A stretch of 39,203 bases of DNA from Opitutia bacterium (lineage in GTDB: Bacteria; Verrucomicrobiota; Verrucomicrobiia; Opitutales; Opitutaceae), in NCBI GenBank assembly GCA_947472765.1, contig CANJCM010000042.1:1-39203 (forward strand), in the 5' to 3' direction. Each line of letters starts with the position of its first letter. The stretch's first letter is position 1. This document shows positions 3,446 through 36,676 of the stretch, in pieces. A program made the position numbers and the translations under genes. Below the pieces are notes generated by a model. That model did no database searches. It saw only the letters and a program-made list of their open reading frames with translations, and was not told the origin of the DNA.

Positions 3446-3470
3446 TGGAGGGCCGGTGCCCCCACCGGCC
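3446..3470 (+). repeat. TGGAGGG-type palindrome, copy 1
   Basis: Head TGGAGGG overlaps an 8-bp stem GGCCGGTG/CACCGGCC with loop CCCC. Related copies with stem-preserving changes lie at 3632-3656, 7927-7950 and 8005-8029. Confidence 0.75.
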
Positions 3471-3514
3471 GCTCTAGATCAGATTAAGTTGAAGTGTGGC
3501 CGATCAGACATTGC

Positions 3515-3539
3515 GGGCGCGCACGAGGCGCGCCCCTAC
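3515..3539 (-). repeat. GTAG/CTCGT extragenic palindrome (REP-like), copy 1
   Basis: Read on the minus strand: GTAG head, stem GGGCGCGC/GCGCGCCC, loop CTCGT. It is paired head to head with the plus-strand copy at 3556-3580. Confidence 0.8.
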
Positions 3540-3555
3540 ATCGATTGTCATTCGT

Positions 3556-3580
3556 GCAGGGGCGTGCCTCGTGCACGCCC
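3556..3580 (+). repeat. GTAG/CTCGT extragenic palindrome, copy 2
   Basis: Head GCAG, stem GGGCGTGC/GCACGCCC, loop CTCGT. Relative to copy 1, a C-G stem pair has become T-A, with both sides changed. Confidence 0.8.
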
Positions 3581-3631
3581 AAATATGGCTACGGAATTCT
3601 TTAACCCGCTCCAGGAGCGCGTTCCCTTTTT

Positions 3632-3656
3632 GGCGGGTGAGGGCACCCGCCCTCCA
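3632..3656 (-). repeat. TGGAGGG-type palindrome, copy 2
   Basis: Read on the minus strand: TGGAGGG head, stem GGCGGGTG/CACCCGCC, loop CCCT. Same design as 3446-3470 but a different stem. Confidence 0.7.
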
Positions 3657-3713
3657 TCGGAGATTTGGATCCGAAGATCCCTTGGGCTCGTTCTCGTAAT
3701 CGTTCTCCTGTTC

Positions 3714-3738
3714 GGGCGTGGTCGAGCCACGCCCCTAC
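3714..3738 (-). repeat. GTAG/CTCGA extragenic palindrome, copy 3
   Basis: Minus strand: GTAG head, stem GGGCGTGG/CCACGCCC, loop CTCGA. Forms a head-to-head pair with 3762-3786. Confidence 0.8.
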
Positions 3739-3761
3739 AAAAGGCCGGGTAGAACGTCGTT

Positions 3762-3786
3762 GTAGGGGCGCACCTCGTGTGCGCCC
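3762..3786 (+). repeat. GTAG/CTCGT extragenic palindrome, copy 4
   Basis: GTAG head, stem GGGCGCAC/GTGCGCCC, loop CTCGT. Another stem variant with fully compensated pairing. Confidence 0.8.
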
Positions 3787-3807
3787 GCCTCGGTGGTAAA
3801 ACCAGCC

Positions 3808-4869
3808 TCAGCTCGAGAGCCCGAGCCAGTTCTTCAGCACCGCCGCGTCGTTGCGGAACGCGGTCACGATGCCTTTCCGCTGCTCGAACGGCGAGGGATA
3901 CAGGTCCGGGCCGAACTTGAAGTGTTCGATGTGAATGATGATCGGGAGCGGGCCGCCATGCGCGGCGATCACGTCCGTGACCATGTCCTTCTTCACGAAG
4001 CCCTGACCGAACGGTACCTGCATCGGCACATTGCGGTGGGTCTTCGGGTCCTCCTCCCAGCGGAAGCTTTTCACACACAGCGCGACGGTGCGCGGCGCCA
4101 GGAGGTCAACCGCGTTCGAATACGAGAGGCCCTGTTCGACGAGCACGTGCTGCGTGTCGAAGGCGATGCCGAAGTATTTCGGATCGATGTCGTCGAGAAT
4201 CATGTCGAGGTCCCAGGCCGCGCTGCCCGCCATCCGCGCGCCGGCGTGAATCTGGTAAACCGCCTGCATGCCGATCTCCTTGTTGAACGCGGCAAACTCC
4301 CGGGCCCAGCTCGTGAACGTCGGGATCTGCGCCTTCCGCGGCTTCGTCAGATCGTATTGGAAACCACGGTGGCGGTAGCGGTTGATCCCGAGCTTCTTCG
4401 CGGCGCGGAGCGCGTTCTGCCAATGCGGCTCGTTCGGCCGCACGAAGTCGGTCGCGAGGTAGGAAATCTTGCGGCCCTTCTTCGCCAGCGCCGCCACCAT
4501 CGCCGGCAGCTCGTCCGCGGCTTTCTCGGGCGTGATGTGGCCGACCTTCCGCACCGTCAGCTCGAGATCGAGACCGATCTCATCGACCACCTGCGCCGTC
4601 TGTTCCGGCGTGTACTTGTAACGAATCTGCTCCGGTGATGCATCGCCGCCGTCGAAGTGCCACTTCTCGAGGACGGAAACTTCAAATTTGCCGAAACCGG
4701 CCGTCGGCGTGAACTCCGCGGTGGACGCGACCGGCGCTGCCGCCGGCGAAGGCGTGATCGCCGCGAGACCCGCGGACGGAGCGAGGTAGGCCGCCGCGGC
4801 GCCGACGCTGGCGCGGGTAAGAAAATCACGGCGACTCAGGGAGGCAGACGAAGGGTTCGGAGTATTCAT
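3808..4869 (-). CDS. Tat-exported sugar phosphate isomerase/epimerase-like TIM barrel
   Basis: 353 residues from the ATG at 4869. The start is chosen because the next residues form a twin-arginine signal (SRRDFLTRAS at 12-21, then an Ala-rich hydrophobic stretch to about residue 40). The reading frame stays open upstream, but that part runs antisense to mdh and is not protein-like. The mature part matches the xylose-isomerase-like/AP-endonuclease-2 TIM-barrel family: 'VDEIGLDLELTV' near the first strands, 'YQIHAGARMAG', 'FGIAFDTQHV' and 'IIIHIEHFKFG' near the C-terminal strands, the last two being likely metal or substrate positions. Members of this family in PVC bacteria are often exported and isomerise or epimerise sugars. 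Exact substrate unknown. It is transcribed convergently with the dehydrogenase. Confidence 0.85.
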   Translation of the reverse strand: MNTPNPSSASLSRRDFLTRASVGAAAAYLAPSAGLAAITPSPAAAPVASTAEFTPTAGFGKFEVSVLEKWHFDGGDASPEQIRYKYTPEQTAQVVDEIGLDLELTVRKVGHITPEKAADELPAMVAALAKKGRKISYLATDFVRPNEPHWQNALRAAKKLGINRYRHRGFQYDLTKPRKAQIPTFTSWAREFAAFNKEIGMQAVYQIHAGARMAGSAAWDLDMILDDIDPKYFGIAFDTQHVLVEQGLSYSNAVDLLAPRTVALCVKSFRWEEDPKTHRNVPMQVPFGQGFVKKDMVTDVIAAHGGPLPIIIHIEHFKFGPDLYPSPFEQRKGIVTAFRNDAAVLKNWLGLSS

Positions 4870-5271
4870 GGGGAGGGGATTTCTGGCCACCCGCGTGACT
4901 TCCACGCGGCATCGAATCGGGAAACGAATCAGTGGTTCCCACCGCGAGACGGCGCAACCCGTTTTTTGGGGCGGGTGCCGGCGATGACACGACGAGGCCG
5001 GGATTTGGAACACAGAGGGCGCAGAGGTGAACGGAGGGCGCAGAGCGGAGTGGCATGGGTCTCCTGACCCATGAAAGCCCATCCGATATGCATCACCACG
5101 GGTCAGGAGACCCGTGCCACCCGATTCCCCAACCTCCGCGTCCTCCGTTAACCTCTGCGACCTCTGCGTTAAAAAAATCACCCGCCCGCTCGCGACCGCT
5201 AATTCCCGCGGGCTGCCGAAATTCTTTCGTGTGTTTGACCGGAATCGTGGGCTAGCGTTTCGGCCCTCTTT
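4870..5271. other. Intergenic region with nested inverted repeats
   Basis: No gene. Tandem CAGAGG/GGGCGCAG units at 5010-5049 are mirrored by CCTCTGCG units at 5133-5170, and between them sit two inverted copies of a GTGG-headed hairpin (5050-5120). The divergent promoters of the isomerase and mdh must lie here. A TTGACC at 5235-5240 resembles a -35 box, but no -10 sits at good spacing. Confidence 0.65.
5050..5120. repeat. Pair of GTGG-headed palindromes in inverted orientation
   Basis: Plus-strand copy: GTGG head at 5050-5053, stem CATGGGT/ACCCATG, loop CTCCTG (5061-5066). Minus-strand copy: ends at 5120 with its GTGG head at 5117-5120, stem CACGGGT/ACCCGTG, same loop CTCCTG. The single stem difference (T versus C) is compensated by A versus G on the other arm. 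Confidence 0.8.
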
Positions 5272-6255
5272 ATGAAATCCCCCATTCGCGTCGCCGTCAC
5301 CGGTGCAGCCGGCCAAATCGGTTACTCCCTCCTTCCCCGCATCGCCTCGGGTTCGATGTTCGGCCCTGACCAGCCGGTCATCCTCCAACTGATCGAGGCC
5401 CCGTTTGAAAAGGCGCTGAAGGCGCTCGAGGGCGTCGCGATGGAGCTCGATGACTGCGCATTCCCGCTGCTCAAGGGCATCGTGATGACTTCCGATCCGG
5501 CGGTCGGCTTCAAGGATGCGAACTGGTGCCTGCTCGTCGGCGCCAAGCCGCGCGGCCCGGGCATGGAGCGCGCCGACCTGCTGAAGGACAACGGCAAGAT
5601 CTTCATCGAACAGGGCAAGGTCATCGACGCGGTCGCTGCCGCGGATGCGCGCGTCGCCGTCGTGGGCAATCCCGCGAACACGAACTGCATGATCGCGGCC
5701 TCGCAGGCGAAGCGCCTCACGCCGGATCGTTTCACCGCCATGGTCCGCCTCGACCAGAACCGCGCGCAGACCCAGCTCGCGAAGAAGGCCGGCGTCGATC
5801 TCACCGAGGTGAAGAACATCTTCATCTACGGTAATCACAGCCCGACGATGTTTCCGTCGTTCGCGCACGCGACGATCGCCGGCCAGCCCGCGACGTCCGT
5901 CATCACCGACAGCGCCTGGCTCCAGGGCCCGTTCCTCGAGACGGTCGGCAAGCGTGGAGCCGCGATCATCGCAGCTCGTGGCGCGTCGTCCGCGGCCTCC
6001 GCGGCCAACGCCCTCACCGATCACGTCCGCAGCCTCGTCACGCCGGGCGCGGTCCATTCGATCGCGGTGAAGTCGAACGGCGCCTATGGTTTCAATCCCA
6101 ACGTCTGGGCCGGCATGCCGGTTCGCACCACCACCCCGGGCAGCTACGAAGTCATCACCGGCTACGTGATGGATGACTTCGCGAAGTCGAAGATCGCGGC
6201 GACCAACAAGGAGCTCGAGGACGAGCGCAGCTTCGTGGCGGAAATGATCAAATAA
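5272..6255 (+). CDS. mdh: Malate dehydrogenase (NAD-dependent)
   Basis: 327 residues, the usual length for the LDH-like type 2 malate dehydrogenases. The Rossmann dinucleotide motif GAAGQIG is at residues 11-17, followed by 'NPANTN', the substrate-binding 'RLDQNR' and the catalytic His189 in 'YGNHSP'. The enzyme interconverts malate and oxaloacetate in the TCA cycle, in the cytosol. The ATG at 5272 gives a correct N-terminus. It is a single gene, ended by a strong terminator right after the stop. Confidence 0.97.
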
Positions 6256-6257
6256 CG

Positions 6258-6314
6258 GGAAACGCGCTCCGCGCGTTTCCTAGAGCCGGTGGCGCACGCG
6301 CCACCGGCTTTTTT
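6258..6314 (+). terminator. Double-hairpin terminator of mdh
   Basis: A first hairpin (GGAAACGCG 6258-6266 with CGCGTTTCC 6272-6280) is followed by a stronger one, AGCCGGTGGCG/CGCCACCGGCT at 6284-6309, ending in a T-run at 6309-6314. This is a standard intrinsic terminator starting 2 bases after the mdh stop. Confidence 0.93.
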
Positions 6315-6398
6315 GTGGGTTGATTCAGACAGTTCCGTCCGTGGGCCGGAGTAGCGCCGCGTCTCTGACCGGCGAAGAGCATACGGATATTCAGTGAC

Positions 6399-6458
6399 GG
6401 GCGCGCACGTGGTGCGCCTCTGCGAAAATGCAGCGTAGGGGCGCGGCTCGTCCGCGCC
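6399..6458. repeat. Pair of GTAG-type palindromes, head to head
   Basis: The minus-strand copy (6399-6425) has head GCAG, stem GGCGCAC/GTGCGC and a shorter loop CAC. The plus-strand copy (6435-6458) has GTAG, stem GGCGCGG/CCGCGCC and loop CTCGT. Both are in the gap between the mdh terminator and the convergent 234-aa gene. Confidence 0.75.
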
Positions 6459-6480
6459 TTGCTCGAAAAATTCGCACCCC

Positions 6481-7185
6481 TTACGCCGAGCCACCAATCA
6501 GTCCCGAGAGCACTTTCGTGATCGCGAAGGCGCTGCGCACGGCAGCGAAGCCCTCGATCAACTCAGCGGGCGAACCCGGGCGCGGGAACACCATTTCGAG
6601 TGAAGCTCCGGTGCAGCGCACTTTCGCGTCGATGCCCTCCACCGCGATCGTGCACTCGCGGCAGTCGGAGGGAAATTCGACCGAGAGGCCGTCGCGGCCC
6701 TCGAGATTCTCGATCGCGTCGATCACCGCCTCCACCGAGGCACCTTTTTTCAGGTTGAAGGAAATCTCCGCAAAGCGACGGGCGAAGACGCGGCTGAAGT
6801 CTTCCTTCCGGGCCAGCTCGTGGCTGACCAATCCGCGGAGCGTGGTCAGCACGGCGTAGCGCGCCGGGTCGGTCTCCTCGAGGGCGTAGACGATCTCCAC
6901 CGTGAAGTCGCGGGCCGTCAGCACCGCCAGCGGACTCGCGACCGAGAGCGCGATTTCCTTCCGCTTGTAGGCGAGGGCCGTGCGCACGTCCTGGAAGAGG
7001 GTCTCGGCATCGCGCGCGAGTTCGGCCGAGCAAAGTTTCCCGAGGAACGCATTGGTCGTGGCGTTGGCCGCGTCCGGGGTGCGGTGATGGCCCTTCTTGA
7101 AACCCTCGAGGGTCTTCACCGTGCCACTGCTCCGGCCGAGGAAGCAGATGTCGGCCACGATGCTCGAAGGAAGTTCACCCGTCAT
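6481..7185 (-). CDS. Conserved hypothetical protein, 234 aa
   Basis: Not recognised. The open frame runs from an ATG at 7185 to TAA at 6481-6483, reads as a soluble mixed alpha/beta protein, and keeps high-GC codon use throughout. There is no signal peptide or membrane segment. Visible features are a basic 'GFKKGHHRTPD' stretch near residue 28 and a Cys pair in 'SDCRECTIAVEG' near residue 180. The C-terminal part 'AELIEGFAAVRSAFAITKVLSGLIGGSA' is predicted helical. The protein stands alone between mdh and a tiny membrane protein gene, so the neighbourhood gives no function. No strong ribosome binding site precedes the start. Confidence 0.75.
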   Translation of the reverse strand: MTGELPSSIVADICFLGRSSGTVKTLEGFKKGHHRTPDAANATTNAFLGKLCSAELARDAETLFQDVRTALAYKRKEIALSVASPLAVLTARDFTVEIVYALEETDPARYAVLTTLRGLVSHELARKEDFSRVFARRFAEISFNLKKGASVEAVIDAIENLEGRDGLSVEFPSDCRECTIAVEGIDAKVRCTGASLEMVFPRPGSPAELIEGFAAVRSAFAITKVLSGLIGGSA

Positions 7186-7368
7186 GTGCCGCCGAGCAAA
7201 CCCAGCCGCCCGTCCGGCACCAGCTCCGAATCATACGAATCTCGGGCGGTCTCTCAGCGGTTGGTTATCCGGGCATTTGAACCACCGAGACACCGAGGCA
7301 CCGAGAAGACTCCGCGAGAGGGGCGCCCGGATTTCATAATTCTTAATTCATCCCTCTTACTTGGTCTT

Positions 7369-7626
7369 TCACGCCGTCACGGCGGAGCGGCGCTTCACCA
7401 GCGTCACGATTCCGATGATGGCCAGAATCGGCAGCCAGATGGGCGAGAGGAGGGTCACGATCACGAGTCCGAGGCAGGCGGCGATCGCCATGGTGGCGAC
7501 GCCGATGCCGGCGAGGAGCGCGAGGCCCGCGGCGAGCAGGCAACCCATGACCAGGGTGATGGGGAGGAGCTTCACGGCGATGATAGCCAGGGCCGCGATG
7601 AGGAGGACTTTCAGGAAGGTTTTCAT
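7369..7626 (-). CDS. Small membrane protein, 85 aa
   Basis: Starts at the ATG at 7626 (MKTFLKVLLIAALAII). Almost the whole protein is hydrophobic, with two or three membrane-spanning segments (residues about 4-20, 24-50 and 55-76) and a basic C-terminus 'LVKRRSAVTA'. The family is not recognised. The frame is open upstream of this ATG, but that sequence is not membrane-like and falls in repeat-rich DNA, so the shorter version is preferred. It may be a small envelope protein. Confidence 0.65.
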   Translation of the reverse strand: MKTFLKVLLIAALAIIAVKLLPITLVMGCLLAAGLALLAGIGVATMAIAACLGLVIVTLLSPIWLPILAIIGIVTLVKRRSAVTA

Positions 7627-7776
7627 GTCCCGAAAACCCGGCAGGTTCCGAAAAGTTGCAGCGATCGAGATTATTTCCTGCCGCGGTCCGGATGGTTTGA
7701 ACAGGAAGGCCGGGGAGGCCGGGACGAGTTCGATCGTGCATTGCTTGGATTTCGAGGCTGTGCCGGCTCGAGGTCG

Positions 7777-7796
7777 CCCTGCCCGTGAGGGCAGGG
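7777..7796 (+). repeat. GTGA-loop palindrome
   Basis: Stem CCCTGCCC/GGGCAGGG closes a GTGA loop (7785-7788). The loop is shared with the palindrome at 7825-7848 (read on the minus strand), although the stems differ. Confidence 0.7.
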
Positions 7797-7824
7797 ACGC
7801 CTTCATTGCTTCGCTTGAGGTCGT

Positions 7825-7848
7825 CCCGCTGCTCACGCAGCGGGCTAC
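7825..7848 (-). repeat. GTAG-headed palindrome with GTGA loop
   Basis: On the minus strand: GTAG head (7845-7848), stem CCCGCTGC/GCAGCGGG, loop GTGA. The same hairpin recurs at 39161-39184 with a GTGG head. Confidence 0.8.
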
Positions 7849-7926
7849 AAAGCCAATTCAAACATTCGCTGCCAGGGAGCAGGCCCTGCGAAACCTCTTA
7901 AGCAGGAACCATGCATTGGAAGGTCC

Positions 7927-7950
7927 GGCGGGTGAGACACCCGCCCTCCA
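7927..7950 (-). repeat. TGGAGGG-type palindrome, copy 3
   Basis: Minus strand: TGGAGGG head, stem GGCGGGTG/CACCCGCC, loop TCT. Same stem as 3632-3656 with a shorter loop. Confidence 0.7.
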
Positions 7951-8004
7951 TGGCAGGCGGGTCGTTCAGATGTCCGTCCGTTCCTCCTCCAGGAAAGCAA
8001 TCCA

Positions 8005-8029
8005 TGGAGGGACGGTGCCCCCACCGTCC
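8005..8029 (+). repeat. TGGAGGG-type palindrome, copy 4
   Basis: TGGAGGG head, stem GGACGGTG/CACCGTCC, loop CCCC. Compared with 3446-3470, one stem pair changed on both sides. Confidence 0.75.
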
Positions 8030-8064
8030 ACGGCTGCATTTCGTCGAGCGAAATGTTCACCAGT

Positions 8065-8137
8065 GTAGGGCTGCCGCTCGTCGGCAGGCCTCTGTCCTTC
8101 ATTCGAGAAACGGCCCGGCGGCGAGCGCCGGCCCTAC
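8065..8137. repeat. Pair of GTAG/CTCGT-type palindromes
   Basis: Plus-strand copy (8065-8087): GTAG head, stem CTGCCG/CGGCAG, loop CTCGT. Minus-strand copy (8115-8137): GTAG head, stem CCGGCG/CGCCGG, loop CTCGC. Here the GTAG heads face outward, the opposite of the pairs at 3515-3580 and 3714-3786. Confidence 0.78.
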
Positions 8138-8226
8138 ATTCAACTGCATCGTTCCGACGTAAGCCGTCGAGTGCCCGGAACGGACCCACGCTTGCGACTC
8201 GCCAGGCGTCGCACTCCACTCGACCC

Positions 8227-8631
8227 GTGGCGAAACCCATTCCTGTCGTCTGTGCCGTGATCGAGAACGGACTCGGGCAAGTGCTCGTCGCCCAGCGGCC
8301 GGCGCACAAGCACCTCGGGTTGAAATGGGAATTCGCCGGCGGAAAGGTTGAAACCGGTGAAGAACCTGCCGCCGCATTGATCCGCGAAATCCACGAGGAA
8401 CTCGGCTGCACGATTGCGATCGTCCGGGCGTTGCCAGTCTTCACGCACGACTACGGCACCGTGACGATTGAGATGTTTCCGTTCGTCTGCCGGCTCGCAC
8501 CGGGCAGCCCCCCACCGCACCCGCACGAGCACGTGGCCGTCCGCTGGCTCGCTCCCGGCGAACTCGCCACGCTCGATTTGGCCGCGGCCGACCTGCCCGT
8601 CGTCGCGGATTACACCGCAAAACGCGGGTAA
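8227..8631 (+). CDS. MutT-like Nudix hydrolase
   Basis: 134 residues from the GTG at 8227, giving the usual N-terminus 'VAKPIPVVCAVIENG' of MutT-type proteins. The frame is open further upstream, but only through palindromes. The Nudix box is complete: second Gly of 'GGKVETGEE', Glu six residues on, then 'REIHEELGC', matching Gx5Ex7REUxEExGU. MutT-like enzymes hydrolyse oxidised nucleoside triphosphates such as 8-oxo-dGTP in the cytosol, although other nucleotide pyrophosphates are possible. Length is normal. The gene ends 23 bp before a large palindrome. Confidence 0.92.
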   Translation: MAKPIPVVCAVIENGLGQVLVAQRPAHKHLGLKWEFAGGKVETGEEPAAALIREIHEELGCTIAIVRALPVFTHDYGTVTIEMFPFVCRLAPGSPPPHPHEHVAVRWLAPGELATLDLAAADLPVVADYTAKRG

Positions 8632-8653
8632 GCCACAGCGCGGGGGGAGTTGG

Positions 8654-8832
8654 CCGCAAAGAGGCATAGCGCGGCGGAGCCGCAACCAAAGGATACCGCC
8701 CCGGATTAAACAGGAAGGCCGGGGAGAGCGGGGAGAGGTCGAAACCATTGCTTCCCGAACTCCCCGATCTTCCTGTTTAATCCGGCTTGGTCCTCTTTGG
8801 TTGCGGCTCCGCCGCGCTATGCCTTTTTGCGG
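8654..8832. repeat. Large imperfect palindrome, about 179 bp
   Basis: The left arm (8654-8727) and right arm (8761-8832) are reverse complements with few mismatches. Outer blocks CCGCAAAGAGGCATAGCG / CGCTATGCCTTTTTGCGG, middle blocks GGCGGAGCCGCAACCAAAG, and inner blocks CCGGATTAAACAGGAAG all pair. The spacer is about 33 bp. It sits between the Nudix gene and the dehydratase gene. Confidence 0.88.
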
Positions 8833-8926
8833 ACATCCCCCGGTTTGTTCTTCGCGGTCCTTCACCCCTTTGCGGCCAACCCGGACCAGCGCTCGACAGA
8901 GCCGTTGGCCTTGGTTCAATCGCCGA

Positions 8927-11638
8927 ATGTCCACCGCCCTCCCCTTTGCTTCCGTGGCCCGCCTGCCTGCCCCCGGAGACAACGTCGCCATCGCGATCCG
9001 CCGCCTCGAAGTCGGCACCGCCATCGCCCTGCCCAATGGCGAAACCCGCACTCTGGCGCACACGGTCCTCGAAGGCCACCGCTTCGCCATCCGCCCGATC
9101 GCGGTCGGCGAATTCCTCCTCTCATGGGCACTGCCGTTCGGCACCGCGACCCGCGCGATCCAGCCGGGCGACTACGTCTCGAACCAATCCATGCTCGACG
9201 CCATGGCCGTGCGCCGGCTCGACCAGGTGTCGCTCCCCAAGGAGCCGAACTTCGCCGACCATCTCGAGGCGCTGCACCTCGAGGAAAAGAATTTCCGCGC
9301 CGGCCCCGCCGTCGACCGCGTCGCCACTCCGCGCACCTTCCAAGGTTATCGCCGCCCCGGTCGCCGCGGCGTCGGCACGCGCAACCACATCGTGATCCTC
9401 GGCACCAACTCCGAGACCGCCAGTTTCGCGCGCCAGCTCGCGGCCCGGCTGCAGGCGCTGGCGAAAGTTCATCCCGGTCTCGATGGCATCGTCGCCATCG
9501 CCCACACCGAGGGCAGCGGCCCCGGCGAACCCAATAACACCACCGAGATCCTGCGCGCGCTCGCCGGGTTCATGGTGCATTCGAACGTCGGCGCCGTGCT
9601 CGCCGTCGACTACGGCACCGAGCCGATCAATAACGCCCGCCTCTCCGCTTATCTGCGTGACCAGGGCTATCCGATCGCGGACGTGCCGCATCAGTTCCTG
9701 TCGCTCCAGTCCGGCATGGCCGCCGGTCTCGCCGAGGGTGAAAAGATCATCCGCGGCTGGCTGCCGACCGTCTCCGCCTTCCCGCGCACCGCGGAGCCGA
9801 TCAGCGGCCTGCGCATCGCCCTGCAATGCGGCGGCTCCGACGCGTTCTCCGGCATCTCCGGCAATCCGCTCGCCGGCGCGATGGCCCACGAGGTGATTCG
9901 CAACGGCGGCATCGCGGTGCTCACCGAGACCGACGAGTCCGTTGGCGCCGAAGCCTATCTGCTCAAGAACGCCCGCGACTACGCGACCGCGCAGAAATTC
10001 CTCGAGAAGATCGAGTTCTTCAAGGAGCGGCTCAGCTGGCACGGCGTCACCGCCGAGAGCAATCCGTCCGGCGGCAACAAGATGCGCGGACTCTACAACA
10101 TCTCGCTCAAGTCGATCGGCGCCGTGCACAAGAAGGATCCGCGCACCCGCCTCGAGCACGTCATCGATTACGCCGAGCCGCTGAACGAGCCCGGGTTCTA
10201 TTTCATGAACGGCCCCGGCAACGATCTCGAGGGCATCGCCGGCCAGATGGGCGCGGGCTGCAACCTGATCCTTTTTGTCACGGGCAACGGCTCGATCACC
10301 AACTTCCCGTTCACGCCCACGCTGAAGATCACCACGACCACGCGGCGGCACCAGCACTTGATCCACGAGATGGACATCAATGCCGGCCGCTACCTCGACG
10401 GTGAGTCGATGGAGTCGTTGACCGCCGAATATCTCGACCTGCTCATCGCCACCGCCTCGGGCCAGCGCACCAAGGGCGAACGCGCCGGCCACTCGCAGGT
10501 CTCGCTCTGGCGCAACTGGCGTCAGACCGATCGCAGCCATCTCGATGAACTCCGCGCGCGCAAATTGCCCAACGGCACTCCGCTGACGTTGAACGCGGCA
10601 CCCGCTCCGGCCGCCGCGCCACTCCAGCTCGCGAAGGGTGTCGACGGACGTTTCGCCACCGAGCGAGTCGGACTCGTGTTGCCCACGAGTCTCTGCGCAG
10701 CGCAGATCTCCCGCCTTGCCGCCGACCGGCTCAATGCGAAGCAACTCGGCCGCGCCCAGGGCATCACACGCTTCGTCGCGCTCACGCACACCGAGGGCTG
10801 CGGCTTCGGCGGCGAGTCGATGTACCACCTGCTGAACCGCACGTATCAGGGTTACATCACGCACCCCAACGTCGCTGCGGCCCTGCTGCTCGAGCACGGC
10901 TGCGAGAAGATCCCGAACGACGTCATGCGCCACCACCTCGAGTCCAACGGTGTGCCGTTGTCCCGCTTCGGCTGGGCGAGCGTGCAACTCGACGGCGGCA
11001 TCGAGAAGGCGCTCGGCAACATCGAGGCCTGGTTCGCCACGCGATTTGCGGAACTCCCGCCCGCGACGACGAGCCTCACCGATCTCGGCGCGCTCAATCT
11101 CGCCCTGCTCACGGCCGCGCCCGTCAGCGTCCCGACCGCCACCGCCCTCGCTCGCCTTGCCCGCTCCGTCGTCGCCGCCGGCGGCACGATCCTCATTCCG
11201 GAAAGCGATCCGTTGCTCGCGAACGCGTCGTTCCGCACGTCACTGTTCGGCACCACGGCACCGCATGCGACGCTCGCGTATGGTCAGGTCGCCACGCAGC
11301 GCGGCTTCCATGTCGTCGCGACGGAAAGCGATCACTGGGTGGAGAATCTCACCGGCCTCGGTGGCAGCGGCGCGCAGGTCGCGCTCACGTTGGTCGGGCG
11401 CCATGCGCAACAGGGCCACCCGCTCGTGCCCGTCATTCAGGTCGGCGAAAACTCCCAGCGCGGAACCCTGCCCGCGGATGACATCGACGCGTTCCTCACG
11501 GGAGACGCCGCAGCGGATGAAGCCGCGTTGGTTCGCCTCGTGAGCCAGGTCGCGCAACGCGAGTACACGCCCGTCGCGATGGTGCAGGGCGCGGTGGACT
11601 TCCAGTTCACCCGCGGCCTGCTCGGCGTGACGACGTAG
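8927..11638 (+). CDS. UxaA-family altronate/galactarate dehydratase with tandem second UxaA module
   Basis: 903 residues from the ATG at 8927; the frame is open upstream only through the palindrome. Residues about 15-90 are an SAF-type domain. Residues about 120-510 are a UxaA body: 'RGVGTRNHIVILGTNS', 'CGGSDAFSGISGNPLAGAM', 'NPSGGNKMRGL', 'HEMDINAG' and 'LIATASGQRTKGE', as in altronate and galactarate dehydratases. Residues about 555-900 repeat the UxaA plan ('VALTHTEGCG' at about 618, 'LLEHGCEKIP', 'GGTILIPESD'). Typical enzymes have about 500 residues, so this one is nearly twice as long. The first module reads HTEGSG (His193) and 'DYGTEP' where the second has HTEGCG (His621) and 'EHGCEK'. 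Members dehydrate sugar acids (altronate, galactarate) in the cytosol; the exact substrate is unsettled. Confidence 0.88.
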   Translation: MSTALPFASVARLPAPGDNVAIAIRRLEVGTAIALPNGETRTLAHTVLEGHRFAIRPIAVGEFLLSWALPFGTATRAIQPGDYVSNQSMLDAMAVRRLDQVSLPKEPNFADHLEALHLEEKNFRAGPAVDRVATPRTFQGYRRPGRRGVGTRNHIVILGTNSETASFARQLAARLQALAKVHPGLDGIVAIAHTEGSGPGEPNNTTEILRALAGFMVHSNVGAVLAVDYGTEPINNARLSAYLRDQGYPIADVPHQFLSLQSGMAAGLAEGEKIIRGWLPTVSAFPRTAEPISGLRIALQCGGSDAFSGISGNPLAGAMAHEVIRNGGIAVLTETDESVGAEAYLLKNARDYATAQKFLEKIEFFKERLSWHGVTAESNPSGGNKMRGLYNISLKSIGAVHKKDPRTRLEHVIDYAEPLNEPGFYFMNGPGNDLEGIAGQMGAGCNLILFVTGNGSITNFPFTPTLKITTTTRRHQHLIHEMDINAGRYLDGESMESLTAEYLDLLIATASGQRTKGERAGHSQVSLWRNWRQTDRSHLDELRARKLPNGTPLTLNAAPAPAAAPLQLAKGVDGRFATERVGLVLPTSLCAAQISRLAADRLNAKQLGRAQGITRFVALTHTEGCGFGGESMYHLLNRTYQGYITHPNVAAALLLEHGCEKIPNDVMRHHLESNGVPLSRFGWASVQLDGGIEKALGNIEAWFATRFAELPPATTSLTDLGALNLALLTAAPVSVPTATALARLARSVVAAGGTILIPESDPLLANASFRTSLFGTTAPHATLAYGQVATQRGFHVVATESDHWVENLTGLGGSGAQVALTLVGRHAQQGHPLVPVIQVGENSQRGTLPADDIDAFLTGDAAADEAALVRLVSQVAQREYTPVAMVQGAVDFQFTRGLLGVTT

Positions 11639-11662
11639 TGCGGTAGCAATCCGTCGGATTTA

Positions 11663-11827
11663 ACCACGAAGACACGAAGGCACGAAGTGTCCGAGCCGCG
11701 CGCCGGCACGCCTTTCGTAGGGGCGCGCCTCGTGCGCGCCCTCTCAGTCACCAGTCCCCTTTTTAGCCACCGAGGCACCAAGACACCGAGGGAACTCATC
11801 CGCTTCGTGCCTTCGCGTCTTCGTGGT
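11663..11827. repeat. Inverted-repeat element with CACGAAG arms enclosing a GTAG palindrome
   Basis: The left arm (11663-11687) is three CACGAAG-type units. The right arm (11803-11827) is its near-perfect reverse complement. Inside lie a GTAG/CTCGT palindrome (11717-11741) and another run of CACCGAGG/CACCAAG/CACCGAGG units (11768-11793). Confidence 0.82.
11717..11741 (+). repeat. GTAG/CTCGT extragenic palindrome, copy 9
   Basis: GTAG head, stem GGGCGCGC/GCGCGCCC, loop CTCGT; the same stem as 3515-3539. It is inserted within the larger 11663-11827 inverted repeat. Confidence 0.8.
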
Positions 11828-12269: not shown

Positions 12270-12337
12270 CAGCGCGAGAACAATGGATTTGGGAGCAGAA
12301 TCCAGACGGAAAGCCCGGCCAGCCCCCCCGGACCGGG

Positions 12338-13420
12338 TCAGGCTTTCGCCGCCGGCAATTCGAGCACCGCACGGAGCCCGTTCCCGCCGGGCCCATCCTC
12401 CAGCGTGAAACGGCCACCGGCCAGTTTCGCCACGGAGCGGACGATGGCGAGGCCGAGGCCGAGCCCCCGCCGTTCGTGGTGAACGCGGTCGAACTGGGTG
12501 AAGGGCGCTTCGTTCGCGCGCTCCTCCGCCGTCATACCGGGGCCTCGATCGAGAACCTCGATGCGATACACCGAGTCGTGGAGGGCGCCGGTGACGACCA
12601 CCGCCTGGTCGGGCCGCGAAAAGAACAAGGCGTTGCTGACCAGTTCCGTCACGGCGTCGGCGAGAAACACCGCGACCACCGGGACTTCGCCGGGAGCGCA
12701 GCTCACCTCGACCCCGGTCTCGCGCTTCGCGTCGGTGGTGGCGCGCCGGACTCCGTCGCGCACCGCCGTTTCGGCCGAGCAGCGTGGAGCAGCAGCCCGC
12801 GGCTCGCCCTGCTTGATTCGCTCCAGTTCGAAATACCGGATCAACTTTCGCGAGAGGGTCTCCTGCAGCTCCGCGCCGGTGCGGATTAAACCGATCACTT
12901 CCTTCAGTTCATCACGGCTGATGGTTTCCGCCTCCAACTCGAGGAGTTGAAGGCCGCCCAGCATGCCGTTCAGCGGCGTGAGCAGCCCGTGCGACCAGTT
13001 GGCGCCAACCTGCCGGCTATGCTGCTCCATCATGGCTTCCACGCGCTCCTGCACGGTGCGCTGCCTCTGGGTGCGCGCCCCGATGACGTCGAGGAGCTCC
13101 TTTTCTGAAAAGGGCTTTGTGATGTAGTCATCCGCTCCCAACGCCATGCCCCGGCGCTGGTCGGCGCGATCGGCCTTCGCGGTGAGGAAGACGAAGGGGA
13201 CGAGCCGCCCGGCCTCGGTCCGCCGGATGGCCTCGATGGTGCCGAAGCCATCGAGGCCCGGCATGGAGACGTCGCAGAAGATGAAGTCGGGCCGCGTTAC
13301 CGCGAGCCGCACGCCTTCGGTTCCCGTGGCCGCCGCCACCACTTCGTGGCCATTCAGCTCCAACATGTCCTGGAGGGTCTGCCGGAGGGCATCCTCGTCT
13401 TCGATGATGAGAATTTTCAT
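12338..13420 (-). CDS. REC-histidine kinase, last gene of phosphorelay operon 1
   Basis: 360 residues. REC domain 1-120 with acidic pocket 'IIEDED', phospho-acceptor Asp50 and conserved Lys102 ('ITKPF'). A short dimerisation/H-box region follows with His144 in 'WSHGLLTPLNGMLGGLQLL', then a HATPase domain from about 245 ('ELVSNALFF' N-box, 'DRGPGM' G1, 'GLGLGLAIVRSVAKLAGG' G2). The residue after the H-box His is Gly, whereas the paralogue at 29823-30905 has the usual Glu. The protein is soluble and probably exchanges phosphate with the other kinases of the operon. Its start overlaps the stop of the preceding gene in ATGA. Confidence 0.92.
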   Translation of the reverse strand: MKILIIEDEDALRQTLQDMLELNGHEVVAAATGTEGVRLAVTRPDFIFCDVSMPGLDGFGTIEAIRRTEAGRLVPFVFLTAKADRADQRRGMALGADDYITKPFSEKELLDVIGARTQRQRTVQERVEAMMEQHSRQVGANWSHGLLTPLNGMLGGLQLLELEAETISRDELKEVIGLIRTGAELQETLSRKLIRYFELERIKQGEPRAAAPRCSAETAVRDGVRRATTDAKRETGVEVSCAPGEVPVVAVFLADAVTELVSNALFFSRPDQAVVVTGALHDSVYRIEVLDRGPGMTAEERANEAPFTQFDRVHHERRGLGLGLAIVRSVAKLAGGRFTLEDGPGGNGLRAVLELPAAKA

Positions 13421-13806
13421 GGGATCACCTGCCGCGGTAATTCGAACCAGAAGCGGGATCCTTGGCCGGGCTGGCTTTCGACCCCCACCTGCCCGCCGAG
13501 CTTTTCGACGATGCGGCGGGCAGCGGTGCGATCGACCTTGGCGGTGACCACGATGACCGGAATGGTTCGCAGCTCCTCTTCCGCACGGATCTGGCGCAGG
13601 AGTTCGAAGCCGTCGATTCGCGGCATCTCGAGATCCGTCACGATGACGGCCGGCCGGTGGCGCCGGGCCAGCGTGAGTCCGTCATGACCATCAGCCGCCT
13701 GCAGGCCTTCGAAGCCATTCAGCTCGAGCATGTCGGCCACGGTCTGGCGGACCGCTTCGTCATCGTCGACCACGAGCACGGCACAGCGGGAAGGCGGATT
13801 ATTCAT
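13417..13806 (-). CDS. Internally deleted REC-kinase, 129 aa remnant
   Basis: Residues 1-93 form the first four-fifths of a receiver domain ('LVVDDDEAVRQTVADMLELNGF', Asp58, 'VVTAK'). The sequence then jumps at 'VDRTAARR' straight into the last 31 residues of a HATPase domain ('IVEKLGGQVGVESQPGQG' ... 'FWFELP'). The paralogue at 30902-31978 (358 aa) has the same beginning and end with about 230 residues between them, so roughly 690 bases were lost in frame. The last receiver strand with its Lys, the H-box and nearly all of the ATPase are missing. Kinase activity is excluded and receiver function doubtful. ATGA overlaps at both ends keep the operon coupled. Confidence 0.9.
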   Translation of the reverse strand: MNNPPSRCAVLVVDDDEAVRQTVADMLELNGFEGLQAADGHDGLTLARRHRPAVIVTDLEMPRIDGFELLRQIRAEEELRTIPVIVVTAKVDRTAARRIVEKLGGQVGVESQPGQGSRFWFELPRQVIP

Positions 13807-16800
13807 GGCCGCTGGACCGGATCCCCCGGGAGTTCGAGGATGAAGCGGCTGCCGGACGGCTCGACCGGTTCCACCCGGACCGTGCCGCCGAGCAGTTCCG
13901 TCATCCGCTTCACGATGCTCAGTCCCAAACCCGTGCCGGCGATAGCACCCACGTTGGATCCGCGTTCGAAGGGTTCGAAGACCCGTTCGCGATCCGCGGG
14001 CGGAATGCCGATGCCCCGATCCTCCACCGTCAGCCGGATTCCTTCCGGCCCAACTGTCCCGGTGACGGCGATGACGGTGCCGGGCGGCGAATAGCGCGCC
14101 GCATTGCTGAGCAGATTGGAAAAGATGTGGTGCAGGAGCTGGGCGTCCGTGGTGGCCTCGGCCGCCTCGCTGTTCCAGCGCCAGACGAACTCGTGCGCCG
14201 ACCGGTCGCCGGCCCGGGCCTCCTCGACCAGGCTCTCCAGCAGGAGGCGGAGATTGGCGGGGGCGAGTTGGACCCGGGTGCGTCCGGCGTCGATCCGGTT
14301 GAGCTGCAGCAAATCATCCAGCATCTCGGTCATCCGGTGCAGGGCGCCCATGATGCGCGCGAACATCTCCTCGCGCTTCGCCGGCGCGATGCGATCGAGG
14401 TGGCCCCGCAGGAGCTCGACCGTCCCCATCACCGTGGCGATCGGCGTCCGGAATTCATGCGACGTCACCGAGATGAAGCGTGATTTCATTTCGGAGACCT
14501 GCCGCTCCTGCTCGAGCCGCCCCGAGGCCTCGGCTTCCGCCTGCTTGCGTTCGGTGATGTCCCGGACGAAAGCGACGAACTGCCCGGGACCCACCGTGGT
14601 CGACCGCACCTCGGCCGCGAAAGACCCCGCCTCGGACAGGACAACGTCGGCCTCCGCAAAATGAGTGCCTTCTTTCGCGAGGGCCTCCCGTCCGGAGGCG
14701 AGCACGGCCTCCTGGAGCGACGGCGGGAGAACCGCGAGCGAACAGGGTGCCGGGCAGGCCAGCCCGGCAAGACGCGTGGCGCCTTTGGCCGGCTGGCAAT
14801 CGAGCAGGGTCCCCGTTTGGTTCACGCGCAGCACCAGATCGGGAATCGCGTCGAGCAGCGCCTCGATTTCCCGCGTCCGCGCCGCGAGCTCGGCCGTGCG
14901 CTGGCCCACCTTGTCCTCCAGCTCGGAGTTAAAGCGCTGGACGGAGGCAAAGGCCTCGCGCTCGGCCAGACCCAGACCGATCATCCGGGCCAGGTTCTCC
15001 AGCAATGCCGTCTCCTGGCCCCGGAAGACCTCCTCCGGAGCCCCGCCAGGCCAGCGAACGCAACCGAGGATGATCTGGCCGGCAGGTCTTTCGTTGATGG
15101 TGACGCCCGCGCAGATTTCGGCGACGCGTGAGCCCTCGGCCCCGGCCGACTGCCGCTCGCCTTCAATCTCCACCACCGCCTGCAAGATCCCCGGGGGTTC
15201 GGTCAGCCCAACCAACGCGGTCGCAACCACCCGGCCCAGTTCGGCGACCGAAAAATCGCGGCGCTCCAGCACGCGCGCGACCTCGTTGAGAACCCGCAGA
15301 CCCTGCAGGGTGCGCCGCAACTCGGCGTCGGCCCGCTTGCGCTCGCTGATGTCCTCGTTGATCGCGAGGTAATGCGTGTTCCGGCCATCGGCGTCCTTCA
15401 CGGGCGCGATGCGCAGCAACACCGTGAAAATCTCGCCGTTCTTCTTGCGGTTCACCATCTCGCCCTGCCACAGCTGGCCGTCGAGAATCCGCCGCCACAG
15501 GTCCGCATAGGTGTGGCCCGGCGTCAGGCCGCTCTGGAGAAAACGCGGGTTCCGGTCCTTGCAATCGGCCAGCGTATAGCCGGTCAATTCGGTGAAGCGG
15601 CGGTTCACATACTCGATCCTCCCCCGCAGATCGGTGATGAAGACGGCGGCCGGGCTTTGCTCCACCGCCGTCGACAGCTTCCGCAATTCCGCCTCCGCCT
15701 CCCGGCGCGCGGTGATGTCATTGAAGATCGCGAACACCCGGTGCGGCTTCGTCTCCCCCCGGCGTACCTCGGGCACCGCATCGACCAGGAGCCAGCGCAC
15801 TTCCGGGCGGTTGCCGGATTGCACCCCCATGACCACCCCGTTCACGCGGGCGCCGGTGCGCAAGGCCACCATCGCGGGATGCTCCTCGCCGGCAAAGGTC
15901 GTGCCGTCCTCCCGCAGGGCACGCCAGATCGGGGCCGTCGATGTCAGGCCCTGCATCGCGGCGAGCGAGAGGCCGAGAATGTGTTCCGCCGCGGGATTGG
16001 CCGTGGTGATCGCGCCCGCCGCGTCGTGATAGACCACGCCGAGGTCCATGTTTTCAAACAGGGCACGATGACGCTCTTCGCTGATGCGAATCGCTTCCGC
16101 CATCTTCCGTTGCTCGGTGACGTCGCTCCACAAGGTCACGAGATAGTCCCGTCCACCCATGGTGGCCTTCCTCGCCCCGACCCGGACGTCGCGGATCGAT
16201 CCGTCTTTGCCACGATGCTTCGTCTCCATCACGCCACCGGCGGGCGACGCGAAGAGCTGCAGGGCTTCGCCGAGCTGCTCCGGCGTCAGCCCGACGTCGA
16301 TGTCGGGAATCGACAGCTGCGCAAACTCCTCCCGCGAATAACCGAGGTTGCGATGCGCCGCCGGGTTGAACTCCGTGAATCGCTGGGCCGAGAGATCGTA
16401 GAGCACGATGGAGTCCAGCATCTGGTTGAAGACCAGCGTCAGGAGTTGCTCCCGTTCATGCAGGGCATGCTCCGCCTCGCGGCGGGCGGTGATGTCGCTC
16501 CAGAAGCCAACGTATTCCTGCAGCCGCCCCTGCTCGTCGATCGCGCTGCTGATCTCGTCGTGGATCCAGCGGTAGGTGCCATCCGGGCGCCGCAGGCGGT
16601 ATTCGAAGGACGTCGCCTGTCCGGGCCCGATCGCCGCGAAGCCCGCCAGCAGGGCATCGCGATCCCCGGGGTGCACCCGCTCGAGCCATAAGCCGGGATC
16701 CAGTTCGAAACCGGACGCGGGCCACCCCGTGATTCGGTGCGCGTTCGGGCTCACGAAGGTAATCGCAGAATCACCCGCGCGCCGGGTGTAGAGCACGGCG

Positions 16801-19487: not shown

Positions 19488-20596
19488 CGGGCGCGCGGGA
19501 GGGTCAGATGGAATTCGGTGCCGGAATCCTCCGGGTGCGCCCCAACGTCCCGGCTCACCACCGCGACCGAGCCGCCGTACTGGACCACAAAGCGGCGCAT
19601 CAGCGGCATCCCGAAGCCCGTCCCGCGCTCCCCATCCGTCCCGGCCCGGCTGTGGCTGCGGCCGATGTCAAACAATTGCTCCAGCAGCGCGGGCGGCATG
19701 CCGATGCCGTGATCCCGAAAGCGGATCTCCACCGTTTCGTCCCGGACCTCCCCGCAAATCTCAATCCGTCCCCCGCGGTGCGAAAACTTGATCGCGTTCG
19801 ACAGGAGGTTGCCGAACACCGAATTCGTGAGGGAGAATGGCTCCGCCAGGATCAGCGCCTCCGGCACATCGGTGGCCACGGTCAGCTCCTTGGCCAGCAC
19901 GCGGTCTTCCACGATGACCATCGCCTCCTCGAGCGCGGAGCGGATTCCGACCGGTTGCAGGGTGATCTTCTTCTCGTCCGTCCGGCGCAATTCGCGCACC
20001 AGATTGGACAGCCCGATGCCGTTCTTTGCCGCCGTCGCCATCCGCGGCAACAGCCTGGCCACGCCCAGTTCGGGACGGCTGGCAAACAGCTCCAGGGACA
20101 TGCTGAGCACGGCAAACTGGTTGCCGACATCGTGACAGAGGATTTGGAGCAGCTCCTTCAGCTCGTCGTTCTTCTGGGTGATCTCACGCTGCTGCACGCG
20201 GAGCGTCAGCTGGGTCCGGACTCGGGCCCGGAGTTCGAACGGACGGAAGGGCTTCGTCACGTAGTCGGCTCCGCCCGTTTCAAATCCGCGTACGACATCC
20301 TCGACGGTCGTCTTGGCCGTCAGGAAAATGACCGGGATGTCCTTGGTGGCGGGATTGGCGCGCAACCGGCGGCAGACCTCGAACCCGTCCATCTCCGGCA
20401 TCATCACATCGAGCAGCACGAGATCGATGCGCTCGCCCGATTCACAGATCTGGATCGCCTTGGCGCCGCGATTGGCCACGCGGAGATCGTATTCGGATTT
20501 TAACACACCAATCAGAACGTCGATGTTCGTCGGCGTGTCGTCCACGAGGAGGAGACAGGGCCGGCTTGAACCCGGAAGCGGGGAAGGTGCGATCAT
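19484..20596 (-). CDS. REC-histidine kinase, 370 aa
   Basis: REC domain 12-130 with 'LLLVDDTPTN', phospho-acceptor Asp63 and Lys115 ('VTKPFRP'), then a linker helix and an H-box of the 'HDVxNQ' type with His155 ('LCHDVGNQFAVLSMSLELF'). The HATPase domain is at about 230-365 ('NSVFGNLLSNAIKFSHRGG', 'DHGIGMPP', 'GTGFGMPLMRR'). This is a cytosolic response-regulator kinase, a usual relay member. It lies 23 bp downstream of the 1802-aa hybrid kinase and overlaps the giant kinase by 4 bases. A decayed copy of its receiver domain persists at 36490-36676, next to the second operon. Confidence 0.92.
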   Translation of the reverse strand: MIAPSPLPGSSRPCLLLVDDTPTNIDVLIGVLKSEYDLRVANRGAKAIQICESGERIDLVLLDVMMPEMDGFEVCRRLRANPATKDIPVIFLTAKTTVEDVVRGFETGGADYVTKPFRPFELRARVRTQLTLRVQQREITQKNDELKELLQILCHDVGNQFAVLSMSLELFASRPELGVARLLPRMATAAKNGIGLSNLVRELRRTDEKKITLQPVGIRSALEEAMVIVEDRVLAKELTVATDVPEALILAEPFSLTNSVFGNLLSNAIKFSHRGGRIEICGEVRDETVEIRFRDHGIGMPPALLEQLFDIGRSHSRAGTDGERGTGFGMPLMRRFVVQYGGSVAVVSRDVGAHPEDSGTEFHLTLPRAR

Positions 20597-29737: not shown

Positions 29738-29822
29738 GCGTCCAAATCCCGGGGGGCTTCACCGCGGCACGGCCACCGGCTTCCTCCGACCCCGATCTCC
29801 CGGCCCCCTTGCCCCGCTGCGG

Positions 29823-30905
29823 TTACGCTTTTGCCAGCGGCAATTCGAGGACTGCGAGCAATCCACTTTCTCCCGGCCCCTCCTCCAGCACCAACCGACC
29901 ACCGGCAATTTTCGCCACGGAGCGGACGATGGCGAGACCGAGGCCGAGGCCCTGCTGCCCCTGCCGGGCGCGGCCGAACTGGGTGAAGGGCGTTTCATTG
30001 GCGCGCTCCTCCACCGACATGCCGGGACCCTGGTCGAGCACTTCGATCCGATAGTTCGAGTCGCAGGGCCCGGCCGTGACCGCCACCTTCCGTCCGGGGG
30101 GCGAAAAGAACAGCGCATTGCCGACCAGCTCCGCGACGGCGTCGGCCAGGAACCCGGCGGGAAGGGCAACGACGCCGGCGCCGCCGCGCACCTCGACATC
30201 GGACTCGCGTTTCGCCTCGGCCCCGGCGCGGCTCACTCCGTCCCGGACAGCGGTTTCGGCCGGACAGCTCCGGGCCACGGCCGGCGGCGGGGCTTGTTTG
30301 AGGCGCTCCAGTTCGAAGTACCGGATCAACTTCCGGGAAAGCTTTTCCTGCCGCTCCGCCCCGCCGCGAATCAACCCGACCACTTCCTTCATTTCATCGG
30401 GGCCAATGGTTCCAGCCTCCATCTCCAGGAGTTGCAGGCCACCCAGCATGCCGTTCAGCGGGGTCAGCAGTTCGTGCGACCAGTCCGCTCCCACCTCGCG
30501 GCGATGCTGCTCCACGAGGGCGTCGATCCGCTCCTGGACTGTGCGCCGTCGCTGGATACGCACCGCGATCGCGTCGAGAATCTCCTTTTCGGAAAAGGGC
30601 TTGGTGATGTAGTCATCCGCCCCCAGCGCCATGCCCCGTCGTTGATCGACGCGATCCGCCTTGGCGGTCAGGAACACGAACGGCACAAGCCGCCCGGCCT
30701 CCGTCTGACGAATGGCCTCAATCGTCCCGAAACCGTCGAGGCCGGGCATCGCGATGTCACAAAAGATGAAGTCCGGATTTTTCGCCGCCAGCTTCACCCC
30801 CTCGAGGCCATCGGCGGCGGCAATGACTTCAAAGCCATTAAACTCCAGCATGTCCTGGAGCGTCTGGCGGAGGGATTCCTCGTCCTCGATGATCAGAATC
30901 TTCAT
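29823..30905 (-). CDS. REC-histidine kinase, last gene of phosphorelay operon 2
   Basis: 360 residues, the same length and domain order as the 12338-13420 gene, and clearly its paralogue. REC domain 1-120 with Asp50 ('FCDIAMPG') and Lys102 ('ITKPFSEKE'). H-box His144 is in 'WSHELLTPLNGMLGGLQLLEME', here with the canonical Glu after the His. HATPase from about 245 has 'ELVGNALFFSPPG', 'DQGPGM' and 'GLGLGLAIVRSVAKIAGG'. It overlaps the preceding 358-aa REC-kinase by 4 bases (ATGA). It ends convergently with the collagen-like gene. Confidence 0.93.
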   Translation of the reverse strand: MKILIIEDEESLRQTLQDMLEFNGFEVIAAADGLEGVKLAAKNPDFIFCDIAMPGLDGFGTIEAIRQTEAGRLVPFVFLTAKADRVDQRRGMALGADDYITKPFSEKEILDAIAVRIQRRRTVQERIDALVEQHRREVGADWSHELLTPLNGMLGGLQLLEMEAGTIGPDEMKEVVGLIRGGAERQEKLSRKLIRYFELERLKQAPPPAVARSCPAETAVRDGVSRAGAEAKRESDVEVRGGAGVVALPAGFLADAVAELVGNALFFSPPGRKVAVTAGPCDSNYRIEVLDQGPGMSVEERANETPFTQFGRARQGQQGLGLGLAIVRSVAKIAGGRLVLEEGPGESGLLAVLELPLAKA

Positions 30906-31978: not shown

Positions 31979-31988
31979 CGTCCGGAAA

Positions 31989-36346: not shown

Positions 36347-36489
36347 CTGATATCAACAACCCCGGGCGGAGAGGGAAGAAAATGTAATCAAAGAGCCGGA
36401 CGGCACGCAGCGCGCCAACTGGAAATACCGGCGCATGCCTTGCGGTGCCGGGCGCTGGAAACGGCAGCGAACCCGGCGGAGGGTGTCAC

Positions 36490-36676
36490 CCCGATCGTCC
36501 CGCTGCTGCGCCCGGAGTGTCAGCAGCGTCCGGACGCGGGCGCACAGTTCCTGGGGCCGGAACGGCTTTGACACGTAGTCGGTCGCCCCGACCTCGAAGC
36601 CACGCACGATGTCCTCGACGGCCGTCTTCGCGGTCAGGAAGGTCGGGCAGCACGAGGTCGATCCGCTCGCCCGCCT
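36490..36676 (-). pseudogene. Remnant of a REC domain (370-aa REC-kinase homologue)
   Basis: Two receiver pieces remain, in different frames: 'GERIDLVLP' near 36650-36672, and 'FLTAKTAVEDIVRGFEVGATDYVSKPFRPQELCARVRTLLTLRAQQRD' (in parts) over about 36490-36640. They match 'GERIDLVLLD' and 'FLTAKTTVEDVVRGFETGGADYVTKPFRP' of the 19484-20596 gene. About 100 bases between them, including the phospho-acceptor Asp, are missing, as are the N-terminus and the whole kinase half. It occupies the same place relative to the giant kinase as the 370-aa gene does in operon 1, so it is the lost counterpart. Confidence 0.8.

Follow-up and report, generated by a model that had tools for sequence, protein, structure and literature searches.

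Between positions 3515 and 11741 of a 39,203-nt stretch of Opitutia bacterium DNA (contig CANJCM010000042.1; the whole stretch is called the window here), small hairpins with a GTAG head and a CTCG-type loop recur, raising the question of what they are and what has spread them. The first-pass annotation took them for a single repetitive extragenic palindromic (REP) family with a freely varying, fully compensated stem and expected a matching REP-associated tyrosine transposase (RAYT) in the genome. Our analysis of the window, of the assembly that holds it (hereafter the own genome; 4.97 Mb, 157 contigs, 95.9% complete) and of related genomes indicates that the hairpins are very probably REP elements, belonging to three families (A, B and C) of miniature repeats associated with RAYTs; the genome itself is probably from the Opitutaceae. 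Families A and B occur in many copies between genes, mostly as inverted doublets, and in relatives such REPs stand on both sides of RAYT genes.

REP families of the window and their genome

Family A consists of a GTAG head, an 8-bp stem GGGCGNNN (GGGC type) and the loop CTCGN, and has seven copies in the window (Table 1). Family B, GTAGGGCYGSCG-CTCGY-CGSCRGGC, has two copies, and family C, GTGGCACGGGTC-TCCN-GACCCGTG, carries a GTGG head and forms one dimer. All eight hairpins of the first-pass annotation exist, each at or within two bases of its listed place, and they are REP-like; the one family proposed for them, however, merged two siblings (the hairpins at 8065 and 8113 are B), and the A copy at 6399–6423 and the C dimer 5050/5097 had been overlooked. 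Comparison with Rfam gave no match to the window.

GC-rich DNA can yield hairpins by chance, and a scan with loose criteria (head GTAG or GCAG, at least 6 bp of perfect stem, any loop of 3–8) does so: 8 of its 14 window hits are not REPs, and eight simulated windows gave 1–8 hits. The strict pattern GTAGGGN{4,10}CTCGTN{4,10}CCC, however, matched three times in the window and never in 100 shuffles, and with hundreds of copies genome-wide a chance origin is refuted. At up to two mismatches, the own genome contains 422 family A and 310 family B matches, against three and one, respectively, for the reversed patterns; this count had been set beforehand as a test, and it came out in favour of REPs. 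A figure of 634 for family A was dropped for these counts, because B copies stand three mismatches from the A pattern.

Individual copies were studied in a sample comprising 706,447 bases from the own genome together with the window, which provided 68 A, 37 B and 26 C copies (reversed control for C, 0). None of the A or B copies lies within a predicted gene, compared with 5,113 of 6,000 random places, and gaps between convergent genes hold 35 of the 68 A and 21 of the 37 B copies (random intergenic places, 167 of 860); genes were predicted for this purpose with a simple home-made codon-bias script. High copy number, intergenic bias and over-represented inverted doublets (see below) bear out the reading as a REP or bacterial interspersed mosaic element (BIME) family.

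Enrichment between convergent genes would also suit hairpins that act as terminators or stabilize mRNA 3′ ends and are maintained because their structure is selected, not because a RAYT spreads them. The four example hairpins that we folded gave stable folds, and RNA roles have been suggested for similarly placed REPs (Di Nocera 2013, PMC3733652). We nevertheless regard this explanation as quite improbable: no REP between 3380 and 3860 is terminator-like, the sole site there (3607–3619; shuffle mean 0.5) lying in an arm of the larger palindrome described below, and the fixed head and loop, the set polarity of the doublets and the position of RAYT genes between the same repeats would go unexplained. 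Termination may be a secondary use of the REPs.

An open-stem search (GTAG or GCAG head, at least six of eight pairs, loop CTCGN) returned 85 hits in the sample. All were A- or B-like, and a random-model control returned no hits. Stems in the own genome are therefore of a few types and do not vary freely. Nor is compensation complete across the genome, as had been proposed: fully Watson–Crick stems were found in 36 of the 68 A copies (at up to two mismatches; 46 if G·T pairs are allowed) and in none of the 37 B copies, and 45 of 46 B hits have a G·G mismatch at stem pair 2. The head is exactly GTAG in 54 of 79 A hits (up to three mismatches) and 38 of 46 B hits (up to four), GTAG being included in the search patterns, and its conservation did not differ between single A copies and dimer members (10/11 versus 42/57, p 0.44). 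Bases upstream of the 68 A heads favour CTTC (C in 32 at −4, T in 30 at −3, T in 44 at −2 and C in 37 at −1), a possible C|T cleavage site.

The 42 distinct A sequences show 28 double changes, 27 of them at pairs 6 and 8, a count that cannot reveal much variation at pairs 1–5 because the A search pattern fixes them; pair 6 is unpaired in seven sequences. The covariation score, the paired cells and the double-change cells of the A stems exceed those of all 500 shuffles. The number of covarying pairs (reached by 47 of 500 shuffles) and that of pair types (129 of 500) are unremarkable.

RAYT genes beside the repeats

RAYT genes flanked on both sides by A- or B-type REPs are seen in relatives such as G004, G016, G028 and G029. 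G004 has one gene, RAYT-A, between A REPs and another, RAYT-B, between B REPs; the two are related (44–45% identical) and score 87.4 and 82.0 bits, respectively, with NCBIfam NF047646, both above its cut-off of 80, and RAYT-A matches E. coli TnpA-REP, whose structure is solved (4er8, E 8.6e-9). The RAYT of G029 is located between B-like REPs, which stand two mismatches from A and probably account for some of the A-pattern hits in that genome. Of 18 RAYT loci that best match RAYT-A or RAYT-B, 11, that of RAYT-A among them, have GTAG hairpins on both sides, and eight of these 11 have at least one loop of the CTYG class, loop sequence not being a search criterion.

The stem behaves differently between genomes. 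We compared nine REPs of 25 nt that adjoin seven RAYT genes of a single clade in six genomes. The head is kept (one GCAG) and the loop is CTYGN in seven, while seven of the eight stem pairs are changed on both sides, with pairing in 98.6% of cells. These REPs were picked by hand (two each from two of the RAYTs, two 24-nt REPs being excluded), and pairing, but not loop sequence, was a search criterion together with the head, so that pairing is partly built in. The idea of a variable, compensated stem thus fits the comparison of RAYTs and genomes, in which head and mostly loop are shared and the stem differs, better than it fits variation within the own genome.

RAYTs bind the folded single-stranded REP through GTAG plus either a bulge in the stem or the loop, and cleave at C|T, 5′ or 3′ of the REP (Corneloup 2021, PMC8266576). 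We suggest that the RAYT, a single-strand Y1 endonuclease, would recognize the GTAG head and the CTYGN-type loop of the folded hairpin and cut near it at C|T, and that the doublet would be copied into new intergenic sites. The stem would then be mainly a scaffold and so could drift by paired changes between lineages, and relatives whose RAYTs read head and loop would share both while their paired stems differ. Within one genome, copies would descend from a few master doublets, giving few stem subtypes. These genomes add a Verrucomicrobiota RAYT–REP set in which related RAYTs go with REPs of common head, mostly common loop and different stem, and this combination should serve as a natural experiment on which features a RAYT reads.

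The own genome has seven Y1_Tnp matches (R1–R7), of which R6 and R7 are RAYT-like: with NF047646, R6 passes at 99.5 bits, R7 falls just below the cut-off at 74.9, and R2 scores 51.7, below it. A C dimer stands on either side of the R7 gene (L072 9777–10639, contig C37), the one downstream overlapping the end of the R7 open reading frame (ORF); R7 is the one clear REPtron of the own genome, carrying family C. R6 was rejected as the RAYT of A or B; the homologs most similar to it, from G013, G001 and G015, are flanked on both sides by GTAGGCGGGGTG-type REPs, of which the sample of the own genome contains one copy at up to three mismatches, and R6 itself has no such hairpin nearby. R1–R5, a Y1 protein type of about 330 aa, were also rejected as cognate RAYTs: among the 102 hits to genes of this type (from 99 loci, with some loci retrieved twice and flanks sometimes short), GTAG hairpins stand on both sides of none and on one side of eight. 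Only R2 of these five has an A REP, 345 bp off, explicable by copy density, and R4 has no A or B REP within 3 kb. Another RAYT type occurs in relatives beside GTAGCCCGGGC-TTC-AGCCCGGG-like REP pairs, on both sides of the gene in G005 (L188) and on the 3′ side in G007 (L190).

Several points weigh against RAYT-driven spread of A and B. No RAYT of the A/B clade was found in the own assembly, R6 and R7 coming closest at 30–36% identity, and the matching RAYT that the first-pass annotation expected was found only in part: as the RAYT-like R6 and R7, as R7 with family C, and as the A- and B-flanked genes of relatives. The missing gene may reflect an assembly gap or a loss. Seven of the 18 loci that best match RAYT-A or RAYT-B lack a GTAG hairpin nearby. 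Mobility of the A and B elements is inferred, and selection for the hairpin as a terminator or RNA processing site could also preserve pairing. Finally, the covariation of stems between genomes is partly circular, the hairpins having been found by demanding pairing.

Doublet polarity and comparison with known GTAG repeats

Most of the window hairpins had been described as sitting in oppositely oriented pairs; the pairs are indeed inverted, but A and B differ in polarity, and the copy at 11717 is effectively single (its best partner candidate has six mismatches, and 123 of 1,500 random places are equal or better). In the sample and window, all 27 pairs of A neighbours within 120 bp have GTAG inward (tail-to-tail as Di Nocera 2013 uses the term), with spacers of 8–43 bp, whereas all 18 such B pairs have it outward, with a spacer of 22 in 14; two mixed A/B pairs were counted separately. 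The C pairs of the sample are outward in 12 of 12 cases. An inward partner at up to four mismatches was found for 55 of the 68 A copies (13 of 1,500 random places), indicating that the doublet is the usual form of A, and an outward partner at up to five mismatches for none. Family B follows the usual layout of a REP doublet forming a hairpin (REPIN), with GTAG outward, a spacer mostly of 22 bp and 72 bp in total. Family A, by contrast with this unit, would have been amplified as the opposite doublet, GTAG inward and with a variable spacer, perhaps since the common ancestor of the own genome and G004.

Exact doublet patterns were counted in 57 genomes. The inward A pattern has 75 matches in the own genome, 36 in G004, three in G052 (another family) and none in any of the remaining 54. 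For the outward GTAGGGGC pattern, the own genome and G004 have a single match each, G016 has 44, G002 38, G007 16 and G017 10, and eleven others have 1–5 each, so that by exact patterns 15 other genomes have only outward GTAGGGGC doublets. Because the patterns are exact and spacer-bounded, these counts are lower bounds. Stems differ between genomes; stems like those of the own genome were found in one outward doublet of G005 and, for one pair member only, in G003. G004 and G007 belong to the same genus as the own genome, and one Y1 protein of G004 is 83% identical to R5. We tentatively propose, as a possibility we still find doubtful, that in the lineage of the own genome and G004 the mobile RAYT–REP unit flipped from the outward doublet of the 15 other genomes to the inward one; the opposite polarity rests on two genomes, which may share one event. 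If the flip is true, the cutting side of a RAYT, or the way in which two REPs meet, would be switchable with head, loop and even stem type unchanged. Opposite A polarity among related genomes also provides a comparison for asking which unit moves.

The two members of a dimer are more unlike than random re-pairing would make them. Perfect inverted-repeat runs of at least 16 bp occur in 2 of 59 own A dimers against 10.0 expected on re-pairing (shuffle fraction 0.0004), in 1 of 18 B dimers against 4.3 (0.027) and in 1 of 20 G004 A dimers against 3.6 (0.086). Removal of long perfect inverted repeats by an SbcCD-type activity could keep the stems unlike, and clearance of long hairpins has been suggested for the heterodimer excess of GTAG repeats (Di Nocera 2013, PMC3733652). 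We consider this a real possibility, if somewhat short of an even chance: the deficit is seen in all three sets of dimers, but it is weak in G004, and descent from one ancestral heterodimer gives the same excess, a distinction that the re-pairing test cannot make.

Among the papers found in literature searches on RAYTs, REPs, REPINs and BIMEs (RAYTs and REP diversity are also covered by PMC2817692 and PMC3686654), apparently only Di Nocera 2013 (PMC3733652) covers REPs of this group. It reports GTAG repeats from Verrucomicrobia, among which Opitutus terrae stands out as highly enriched (GTAG-17, GTAG-19 and GTAG-20), dimers of both polarities, a heterodimer excess and, in some species, dimers within larger palindromes; as a rule of thumb, outward dimers have conserved and inward dimers variable spacers. 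The REPs of the own genome fit this description closely, and the kind of element is already known: they share with that superfamily a GTAG or GTGG head, stems mostly of 6–9 bp, complementary subfamily changes and G·T pairs, as well as inverted dimers in either polarity, an excess of heterodimers, a location between genes and in convergent gaps, REP-flanked RAYTs (for C in the own genome, for A and B in relatives) and nesting in palindromes. Spacers differ from those of O. terrae GTAG-17 and GTAG-19 dimers (1–2 bp), being 8–43 bp in A and mostly 22 bp in B; comparison of A, B and C with the named O. terrae families was by text description rather than consensus sequence. What is new is that GTAGGGGC doublets have opposite polarity in related genomes, a point that we did not meet in the accessible parts of that paper.

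The 72-bp B units resemble Pseudomonas fluorescens REPINs (PMC3116915), unlike family A with its inward GTAG and variable spacers, the conserved ends of REPINs facing outward as we understand that source. Like the TnpA-REP systems of E. coli, Stenotrophomonas and Marinomonas (PMC8266576), those described here combine a Y1 transposase homologous to 4er8 with a GTAG head. Corneloup 2021 (PMC8266576) places mismatched stems in group 2 and perfect stems in group 3; both kinds are found here too, but unlike in those groups they are flanking related RAYTs, with A mostly perfect and B carrying its constant G·G.

The larger palindrome and other features of the window

Some A doublets sit in the middle of a larger, imperfect palindrome (about 150 bp) whose arms have the form CTAGAGC..TTAA..GTAGCC and GGCTAC..TTAA..GCTCTAG; the window case spans 3466–3624 (about 160 bp). 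The CTAG ends (CTAGAGC/GCTCTAG type) resemble the insertion sites of elements like miniature inverted-repeat transposable elements (MITEs). Family A could accordingly have spread as the core of such a MITE-like palindrome, moved by another transposase, with the REP dimer as its cargo or inserted into it.

We searched for arms in 79 inward dimers, 59 of the own genome (31 from the sample and window, 28 among the matches listed for the exact inward pattern) and 20 of G004, likewise among the matches listed. At least one arm was recognized (at least 6 bits) in 13 of the 59 and 11 of the 20, against none among 1,580 shuffled arms and one among 1,500 random genomic 60-mers. The profile had been built from 17 of the tested arms; without these, 19 of 141 arms still match, in nine own and eight G004 dimers. 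In a scan of the sample, 11 of 12 arm hits above 11 bits adjoin A REPs and the twelfth an A-like remnant, and several arm-bearing A copies have a common spacer. An origin of every A dimer in the palindrome was rejected, as 46 of the 59 own dimers have no detectable arm, and by eye degenerate arms often surround near-perfect REPs. No transposase with such arms was found in a search limited to a brief look for terminal repeats around R1–R5, which gave only a 13-bp match at R3. REP dimers lie in palindromes elsewhere too (Di Nocera 2013, PMC3733652), so that nesting alone does not prove cargo. Overall, we consider spread of family A by the palindrome unlikely and favour RAYT-associated REPs.

Table 1 Hairpin elements and palindrome arms in the window (positions on the 39,203-nt stretch)
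Element	Positions	Strand	Description	nhmmer score (bits)
Palindrome, left arm	3466–3505	+	Larger palindrome around the 3515/3556 dimer	20.6
A-family REP	3515–3539	−	Inner stem CGC/GCG; left half of inward (tail-to-tail) dimer	
A-family REP	3556–3580	+	Head GCAG; inner stem TGC/GCA; right half of the 3515 dimer, spacer 16	
Palindrome, right arm	3583–3624	−	Larger palindrome around the 3515/3556 dimer; among the 17 profile-building arms	28.4
A-family REP	3714–3738	−	Inner stem TGG/CCA; loop CTCGA; pairs inward with 3762 across a spacer of 23	
A-family REP	3762–3786	+	Inner stem CAC/GTG; dimer mate of 3714	
C-family REP	5050–5073	+	GTGG head; stem CATGGGTC, differing from CACGGGTC by a compensated change	
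C-family REP	5097–5120	−	GTGG head; stem CACGGGTC; pairs outward with 5050 across a spacer of 23	
A-family REP, degenerate	6399–6423	−	Three mismatches; inward mate of 6435	
A-family REP	6435–6459	+	Inner stem CGG/CCG; final base T (G·T pair)	
B-family REP	8065–8089	+	25 nt; CTGCCG stem; pairs outward (head-to-head) with 8113 across a spacer of 23	
B-family REP	8113–8137	−	25 nt; CCGGCG stem; dimer mate of 8065	
A-family REP	11717–11741	+	Commonest A sequence; effectively single	

Other repeats in the window include a 108-bp direct repeat within an ORF (462–569 and 682–789; 94% identical, 220 bp apart) and two paralogous blocks (12314–20326 and 29799–36640; about 16–18 kb apart) that are 71–76% identical over stretches, the two proteins scanned there having response-regulator/ATPase and PAS domains. 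A 1056-aa ORF at 8468–11638 has altronate/galactarate dehydratase domains, each Pfam domain being matched in two stretches.

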